A DNA stretch of 64,000 nt from the NCBI RefSeq assembly GCF_009709575.1, contig NZ_WIXO01000001.1, forward strand, positions 1,984,001 through 2,048,000, in the 5' to 3' direction. The notes beneath the pieces are model-generated. The model saw nothing but the letters and a program-made list of their open reading frames with translations, made no database searches and had not been told where the DNA came from. Both the position numbers and the translations under genes were made by a program. The DNA comes from Streptomyces taklimakanensis (lineage in GTDB: Bacteria; Actinomycetota; Actinomycetes; Streptomycetales; Streptomycetaceae). Shown here one piece after another: positions 30,208 through 31,490 of this stretch; position 1 is the first letter of the stretch; every line of letters begins with the position of its first letter.

Positions 30208-31158
30208 TCAGGCCCAGAGCTGTCCCTGGAGCGCCTCGACGGCGGCCTCGGTGCTGGGCGCGGTGTAGATGCCGGTGGACAGGTACTTCCAGCCGCCGTC
30301 GGCGACGATGAAGACGATGTCGGCGCTCTCCCCGGCCTTGACGGCCTTGCGTCCGACGCCGATGGCGGCGTGGAGGGCGGCGCCGGTGGAGACGCCGGCG
30401 AAGATGCCCTCCTGGGCGAGGAGTTCGCGGGTGCGGGTGACGGCGTCCTCGGAGCCGACGGAGTAGCGGGTGGTGAGGACGGACTCGTCGTACAGCTCGG
30501 GGACGAAGCCCTCGTCGAGGTTGCGCAGGCCGTAGACGAGGTCGTCGTAGCGCGGTTCGGCGGCGACGATCCGGATGCCGGGGACCTTCTCCCGCAGGTA
30601 GCGGCCCGCGCCCATCAGGGTGCCGGTGGTGCCCAGACCGGCGACGAAGTGGGTGATGGAGGGCAGGTCGGCGTGGATCTCGGGGCCGGTGCCGGTGTAG
30701 TGGGCGCCGGCGTTGTCGGGGTTGCCGTACTGGTAGAGCATGACCCAGTCGGGGTGCTCGGCGGCCAGCTCCTTGGCGACGCGCACGGCGGTGTTGGAGC
30801 CGCCGGCGGCCGGGGAGGAGATGATCTCGGCTCCCCACATGGCCAGCAGTTGGCGGCGCTCGGCGCTGGTGTTCTCCGGCATGACGCAGACCATGCGGTA
30901 GCCCTTGAGCTTGGCCGCCATGGCCAGCGAGATGCCGGTGTTGCCGGAGGTGGGCTCCAGGATGGTGCGGCCGGGGGTGAGCCGGCCGTCCTTCTCGGCC
31001 TGCTCGATCATGTGGAGGGCCGGGCGGTCCTTGATCGAGCCGGTGGGGTTGCGGTCCTCCAGCTTGGCCCAGATGCGGACGTCCTCGGAGGGCGAGAGCC
31101 GCGGCAGGTGCACCAGGGGGGTGTTGCCCACCGCGGCGATCGGCGAGTCGTAGCGCAT
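30208..31158 (-). CDS. cysM: cysteine synthase CysM (O-phosphoserine/CysO type)
   Basis: A 316-residue PLP enzyme. The cofactor Lys43 is in '[14 protein letters not shown]', the substrate loop is '[13 protein letters not shown]', and the glycine-rich phosphate loop is '[15 protein letters not shown]'. In actinobacteria this branch uses O-phosphoserine and takes sulfide from thiocarboxylated CysO, giving a CysO-cysteine adduct. The ATG at 31158 shares one base with the cysO stop (TGATG), so translation is coupled. Mec, which frees the cysteine, is encoded upstream of the leader peptide. Confidence 0.92.
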
Positions 31159-31490
31159 CAGCGCATGCCCTCCCGTCGCCCGACCGCCGTCCCGGCCGGA
31201 CGGGGCCGCGCCCCGGCAGCGCCTCCGGCGACCGCGGGGAGGATGGTCACGTTGTCGCCGTCGCTGAGCTTGGTGGAGATCCCGTCCAGGAAGCGGACGT
31301 CCTCGTCGTTGAGGTAGACGTTCACGAAGCGGCGCAGCTCGCCGCCGTCCACCAGACGCTCCCGGATGCCGCTGTGCCGGGTCTCCAGGTCCTCGATGAG
31401 TTCGGCGAGGGTGCCGCCGTTGCCCTCGACGGACTTCCGGCCGTCGGTGTAGGTGCGGAGGATGGTCGGGATGCGGACCTCGATGGCCAT
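31158..31490 (-). CDS. cysO: sulfur-carrier protein CysO with C-terminal extension
   Basis: A 110-residue ubiquitin-fold sulfur carrier (MoaD/ThiS family). The body matches CysO ('[13 protein letters not shown]', '[19 protein letters not shown]', '[10 protein letters not shown]'). In the mycobacterial protein the Gly-Gly at the end of this last motif is the C-terminus and carries the thiocarboxylate. Here 20 more residues follow ([11 protein letters not shown]...GMR) before the stop that overlaps cysM, so the protein would need trimming before activation. A JAMM protease (Mec) is encoded next door. The ATG at 31490 begins MAIEVRIPT. Confidence 0.9.

Follow-up and report, generated by a model that had tools for sequence, protein, structure and literature searches.

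The window analysed here, a 64,000-nucleotide stretch of the Streptomyces taklimakanensis genome, encodes a CysO sulfur carrier with 20 residues behind its Gly-Gly. Judged by sequence comparison, the 18-codon insert responsible for most of this tail represents one copy of a hairpin repeat of ~54 nt that is dispersed in Streptomyces. The account that we favour, and consider probable as a whole, is that a hairpin repeat lies in frame behind the Gly-Gly codons of cysO, that its product would be trimmed by the protease Mec, and that the tail needs no function of its own. What looked like a propeptide becomes an example of a protein end shaped by repeat DNA. It also brings to light a repeat family found widely in Streptomyces, copies of which lie inside pheT as well in some lineages. 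The repeat-derived insert in CysO is the new element of this account; the processing of capped Streptomyces carriers by a JAMM protease has been proposed before.

The cysO-cysM-mec locus and the insert in cysO

The cysO gene (31158..31490, minus strand) encodes a ThiS/MoaD-like sulfur carrier of 110 amino acids plus stop, the 20-residue tail included, with the PF02597 domain at residues 5-90. A reading made earlier from the letters of the window (hereafter the sequence-only reading) had reported 20 residues after the Gly-Gly and a stop that overlaps cysM. Both statements were borne out by the translation, in which Gly-Gly forms residues 89-90, preceded by ILPAVA and followed by 20 residues and a TGA, and in which the cysO stop (31160..31158) and the cysM ATG have base 31158 in common (TGATG). 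Using phmmer, residues 1-90 of CysO aligned to all of 4n6e_B, a chain ending at Gly-Gly, and residues 2-90 aligned up to the final residue of 3dwg_C, which we take to be mycobacterial CysO.

The overlapping gene, cysM (30208..31158, minus), encodes a cysteine synthase (TIGR01136), and a Shine-Dalgarno-like GGGAGG lies about ten bases ahead of its ATG. Upstream of cysO is mec (31921..32352, minus), which encodes a Prok-JAB (JAMM) protease (PF14464); HSH-x7-S-xx-D, read by eye in its translation, is presumably the JAMM motif, and Mec was the sole PF14464 match at E ≤ 0.01 in this genome. Between mec and cysO there is one small ORF (31601..31801, minus) with a putative leader peptide (NF042934, above cut-off), which suggests that cysO-cysM may have its own attenuated transcript. 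Farther along, a DUF2017 protein (34367-35464, minus) gave a sub-cut-off match to the oxidative-stress regulator AosR (77 of 260 bits), and a transporter-like ORF (32454-34049) separates its gene from mec.

The locus thus has a ThiS/MoaD domain with a ..PAVAGG end and adjoining cysM and JAMM mec genes, all of which belong to the CysO pathway, but not the encoded Gly-Gly C-terminus of that pathway. Such an end can hardly be strictly required of a CysO, because none of the 60 Streptomyces CysO proteins sampled (see below) terminates at a bare Gly-Gly either. As in capped-carrier systems, there are residues after the Gly-Gly and a JAMM protease nearby.

Comparison with the closest relatives (loci L008, L043 and L044) delimits the insert: their genes read Gly-Gly, Met-Arg, stop, and the window gene reads Gly-Gly, 18 codons, Met-Arg, stop. 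The 54 inserted nucleotides occupy 31167..31220 (minus) and contain the hairpin of the repeat, CGGGGC-GCG-GCCCCG, at 31201..31215 (minus); the ordinary two-residue cap Met-Arg follows at 31161..31166 (minus). Locus L009 has 13 residues resembling a shortened form of the insert, and a related insert is found at this position in other Streptomyces too, mostly ahead of a cap such as MA, MV or MR. A sequencing error hiding a stop after the Gly-Gly is unlikely and was rejected, since a related insert occupies the same place in 12 other Streptomyces genomes of the 392 searched; it was also seen in named assemblies such as L037-L042, some of which may duplicate the 12 genomes.

A dispersed hairpin repeat of Streptomyces

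When the insert of S. longwoodensis (L039) was used as a DNA query against 392 Streptomyces genomes, a cysO copy was found in at least 13 of them, including that of the window (L137; E 3.1e-11). The same search gave 27 further matches at E ≤ 1e-6, of which 17 were fetched; none of these (0/17) lies in cysO, and most of them share the 3' border of the cysO insert. A reversed-query control gave no match at E ≤ 1e-6 in 199 genomes (best 3.5e-6), with four candidates scored per genome for the control and two for the L039 query, and with 15 of the 27 strong matches falling in G000-G198, a range close to that of the control. At E ≤ 1e-3, 125 of the 199 genomes had a match to the reversed query as well, and weak repeat matches are therefore uninformative.

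Of 150 Streptomyces genomes, 119 had a match at E ≤ 1e-3, and 57 at E ≤ 1e-6, to a profile built from 19 copies (R1); these counts stand without a shuffled control, and one genome reached 30 matches. The R1 match to the window copy, itself one of the 19, spans 31167-31219 (35.2 bits). Taken together, the L039 matches, the reversed control and the R1 counts indicate many dispersed similar copies, as in elements of the REP or RPE type. Tandem copies 52-63 nt apart were found in five genomes (G036, G055, G102, G142 and G012). In the window's own genome (G000), a DNA query for further copies returned none that was convincing, and R1 gave a second match at E ≤ 1e-3. Among 148 genomes of the class, six matched at E ≤ 1e-5: four of the 11 Streptomyces and two of the 137 others, both of one genus. 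One genome of a genus other than Streptomyces (G492) had eight repeat matches.

The repeat consensus (A2) has a 5-bp stem whose loop is mostly G-N-A, and behind it a G-rich stretch with GGGGTGGTGGTCGGGCGACGGGCGG at its end. In the 28 copies selected for it, 98.6% of stem cells pair and 13 cells are changed on both sides; such both-side changes occur in four of the five pairs, none of 500 shuffles reached the observed covariation score, and slid structures do worse than the fixed stem. These copies came from 47 loci, with 16 excluded by hand, some of them for an imperfect stem, and with one cysO copy, one identical copy and one copy lacking the 3' motif set aside as well. Because this choice favours the stem, the count was repeated with every distinct copy that shows the 3' motif, 39 in total, whatever the quality of the stem. 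Here 173 of the 195 stem cells pair in a fixed frame; shuffles gave a mean of 137, and none of 2000 was as high. The covarying-stem result stands, with fewer paired cells than in the 28 selected copies. The repeat thus has a conserved hairpin with compensatory changes, again as in REP- and RPE-type elements. The window copy has a longer stem, the CGGGGC-GCG-GCCCCG given above (31215..31201). Folding energy of single copies is not strong, the window copy lying mildly below its shuffles (z -1.75) and L147 above them (z 1.58).

Position in frame inside protein-coding genes, a third property of such elements, is seen in cysO and in PheT, which a copy (L147) interrupts in frame at a gap in 7k9m, presumably a mycobacterial structure. 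A second PheT case (L148) was judged by frame. In L153 a copy lies in frame within a UvrD domain match, with no gap at the copy in the alignment with 6ppj, and L241 is similar by frame. Further likely in-gene copies were recognised by frame only, with names given by eye, in GNAT-like (L142, L239), VWA-like (L140) and transporter-like (L138) genes, and in a methyltransferase gene (L143), whose name has a domain match behind it; this classification covers part of the copies, several of them by eye. GGGCGG-like direct repeats flank some in-gene copies (L138, L142 and L153), and the Gly-Gly codons of cysO look similar (by eye, with no control); such flanks could be an insertion target or a route of precise loss.

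These properties recall the Rickettsia palindromic elements and the REPs in ORFs, which are likewise described as short dispersed hairpins, lying in frame within genes and near coding ends (PMC3733652, PMC10969869); the name Streptomyces is absent from both main texts. The A2 consensus, compared by features and not base by base, has no GTAG at an end, and CGTC follows the stem in some copies only. A RAYT (Y1 transposase) as mover of the repeat was not supported in 14 genomes, where Y1 transposases do not track copy number: G090 has 30 R1 matches and no Y1 transposase, and G011 has no match and two Y1 transposases. Given the lack of a terminal GTAG and of a link to Y1 transposases, we do not file the repeat as a REP; it works like the Rickettsia palindromic elements. 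The MIRUs of mycobacteria are repeat units that sit at stop-start overlaps in operons and occur in tandem copies. The Streptomyces repeat shares with them the stop-start overlap, in its cysO copy, and the tandem copies, a likeness of description and not of sequence. A search of Rfam with seven repeat loci returned nothing relevant (three rows scored far below the gathering scores), and the family was not found in the open-access literature on repeats, although it may be described elsewhere. A protein-coding hairpin repeat of Streptomyces thus appears to be undescribed.

Evolution of the insert and of the caps behind Gly-Gly

Across 15 cysO copies, pN/pS was 0.77 for the insert, compared with 0.22 for the last 39 codons of the core, and when the window was compared with the other copies the values were 1.21 and 0.17, respectively. 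Synonymous divergence of the insert was about half that of the core (pS 0.116 versus 0.224). The estimates rest on 54 nt in 15 related copies, and over all pairs the ratio for the insert is below 1. They suggest that the DNA of the insert is similar among copies, while the peptide is little constrained.

The lower pS would also be expected if the insert had been retained for a function in the cysO-cysM message, at the RNA level or in translation, such as one exerted through its hairpin and the GGGAGG that precedes the cysM start by about ten bases, and the covarying stem points the same way. We nevertheless regard such a role as unlikely. The stem is conserved in copies at unrelated sites and so belongs to the repeat itself, the insert is absent from most of the relatives sampled, and the folding energy is only mildly below that of shuffles for the window copy (z -1.75) and above it for L147 (z 1.58).

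Rather than having been selected as a propeptide, the tail is probably an insertion that is tolerated, as the insert is by sequence a repeat copy and is little constrained as protein. A tree of the cysO core and cysM was built from 133 loci, among them some duplicates. Mapped on it, presence or absence of the element requires 11 changes or more, and well-supported branches force six of these; the 21 element rows include duplicates, with L007 and L137 at the same place and L041/L131 and L042/L128 identical. This distribution shows repeated gain, precise loss or exchange, a pattern that does not tell which. One additional base in L135 puts the repeat into a different frame without closing the tail, which continues to be read. 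Across copies of the repeat at least two frames are in use, that of CysO being PRPAG.A.GRR.G.

The sequence-only reading had proposed that CysO is a precursor processed by Mec and had suggested a survey of Streptomyces CysO C-termini for the length and conservation of the extension. In such a survey, every one of 60 sampled proteins proved to be capped, 55 by exactly two residues and five by 9-27; none ended at a bare Gly-Gly. The usual cap is Met-X, the first residue being Met in 48, Ser in eight, Ala in three and Thr in one. The sample comprises about every second of the listed matches from roughly the 31st to the 150th, and is hence drawn from the half of 295 genomes whose CysO is more similar to that of the window. 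Two Streptomyces loci outside it begin their cap with Arg (L015, RY; L025, RL). Matches in tblastn that seemed to reach residue 110 in loci with two-residue caps (for example, L048 and L049) were read-through into cysM and not tails.

Among 56 CysO-like proteins of other actinomycetes, 29 end at a bare Gly-Gly and 27 carry 1-21 further residues of dissimilar sequence. They come from 59 loci (L258-L316) among the matches listed, three of which were missed by the motif and dropped; they were taken without regard to a cysM neighbour, and some may be paralogues. The first cap residue was Ala, Ser, Gly or Met in all 27 capped proteins (15, 9, 2 and 1, respectively). In tails of two residues or more, a residue of the set A/S/G/M/T/C, picked after seeing the data, stood at the first position in 23 of 23 and at later positions in 61 of 128. 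In one of these proteins (L269) a 21-residue tail ends again in VTVLPAVAGG, an apparent tandem copy of its own C-terminus.

Two-residue caps persist where the stop-to-start gap is 1-22 nt, that is, where the cysO stop does not overlap cysM. The overlap alone therefore does not explain the cap, and a cap set purely by this overlap, or by the Gly-Gly codons serving as a ribosome site, was rejected as a full account. The caps are thus ordinary, free in length and restricted at their first position, which fits removal by a protease whose other substrate has Cys at that position.

Persistence of the cap without overlap, like its presence in all 60 Streptomyces proteins, usually as Met-X, might also be taken to favour a selected propeptide that masks the Gly-Gly until Mec releases it and so times CysO activity. 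We consider this quite improbable for the window tail: universal capping argues for the short cap and not for 20 residues, about half of the actinomycete relatives (29/56) have none, those that do show 1-21 residues of dissimilar sequence, the insert is not constrained as a peptide, and L135 reads it in another frame. Of the precursor proposal, processing by Mec is plausible, agrees with the data presented here and had already been put forward for Streptomyces; the 20-residue tail as a meaningful pro-sequence is not supported, in view of the 18 of 20 residues that translate a dispersed hairpin repeat lodged between Gly-Gly and the usual two-residue cap, of cap lengths that range from 0 to 27 residues across the relatives sampled, and of an insert that evolves unlike a constrained peptide. 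That the tail is neither repeat nor functional, but arose when a stop was lost by chance and reading continued to the following one, is hardly credible: cap lengths elsewhere in actinomycetes do look haphazard, but the insert is followed by the ordinary Met-Arg and by the usual stop, the insert matches a dispersed repeat in a search that included a reversed control, and the aligned sites of L008, L043 and L044 have no insert.

Predicted processing by Mec

In the favoured account, a dispersed hairpin repeat of ~54 nt has inserted in frame into cysO, directly after its Gly-Gly codons and before the usual two-residue cap, and CysO is therefore made with 20 residues beyond Gly-Gly. Mec would cut after the Gly-Gly whatever follows, provided that the next residue is small or Met, and the cut would leave a free Gly-Gly end for MoeZ-type sulfuration. 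Such trimming would make the site behind Gly-Gly a harmless landing site, and the tail would need no function of its own. Removal of the tail by Mec is predicted and appears likely, given that Mec is the sole Prok-JAB protein found, that a small residue or Met almost always comes next after Gly-Gly, and that a JAMM mutant of S. platensis lost thiocarboxylate products attributed to capped carriers. In AlphaFold models, of which only the best of five was confident, the tail had a pLDDT of about 45, suggesting that it is probably flexible and reachable.

QbsE, the capped carrier of thioquinolobactin synthesis, has a very short cap and, unlike the window CysO, belongs to a siderophore pathway. As in the account above, a protease exposes the Gly-Gly of this capped carrier (QbsD, as cited in PMC6006322). 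M. tuberculosis has the same three genes and the same core, and its Mec hydrolyses the CysO-cysteine adduct (PMC3227635); its CysO differs in ending at Gly-Gly (3dwg_C).

The nearest parallel is in Streptomyces platensis, for which PMC6006322 describes two carriers, PtmS2 with the cap MV and PtmS3 with the cap C, alongside a single JAMM protease, PtmS1. As in the window, PtmS2 has residues after its Gly-Gly and its gene is clustered with that of the protease (ptmS1); the difference is that 18 repeat-encoded codons precede the cap in the window CysO. We infer that PtmS2 is the CysO counterpart, a name that is absent from the main text of that paper. Deletion of ptmS1 abolished thiocarboxylate products, which the authors took to corroborate the use of capped carriers, and deletion of ptmS2 alone left these products in place, read there as possible redundancy (PMC6006322). 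On the strength of this reading of the ptmS1 mutant, JAMM processing of capped Streptomyces carriers counts as already proposed, although loss of ptmS1 could act otherwise than through carrier processing. The double role that the sequence-only reading gave to Mec, maturation of the carrier as well as release of cysteine, is plausible and close to what is in print.

We tentatively suggest, as a possibility that falls short of an even chance, that a dedicated processing protease turns the end of its substrate into a refuge for selfish DNA: the repeat would settle behind the Gly-Gly because Mec trims its product and thereby erases the cost at the protein level. Two questions become testable. One is whether Mec acts both in carrier maturation and in cysteine release, with the residue that follows Gly-Gly deciding between the two; the other is whether hairpin repeats are retained more readily at sites where their translated product is cut away by a protease. 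The window genome also encodes a second CysO-like carrier (L002, C1:2527314-2527607), which ends in GG-Cys and so resembles PtmS3 of S. platensis with its single-Cys cap (PMC6006322); its gene adjoins one that, by eye, resembles threonine synthase.
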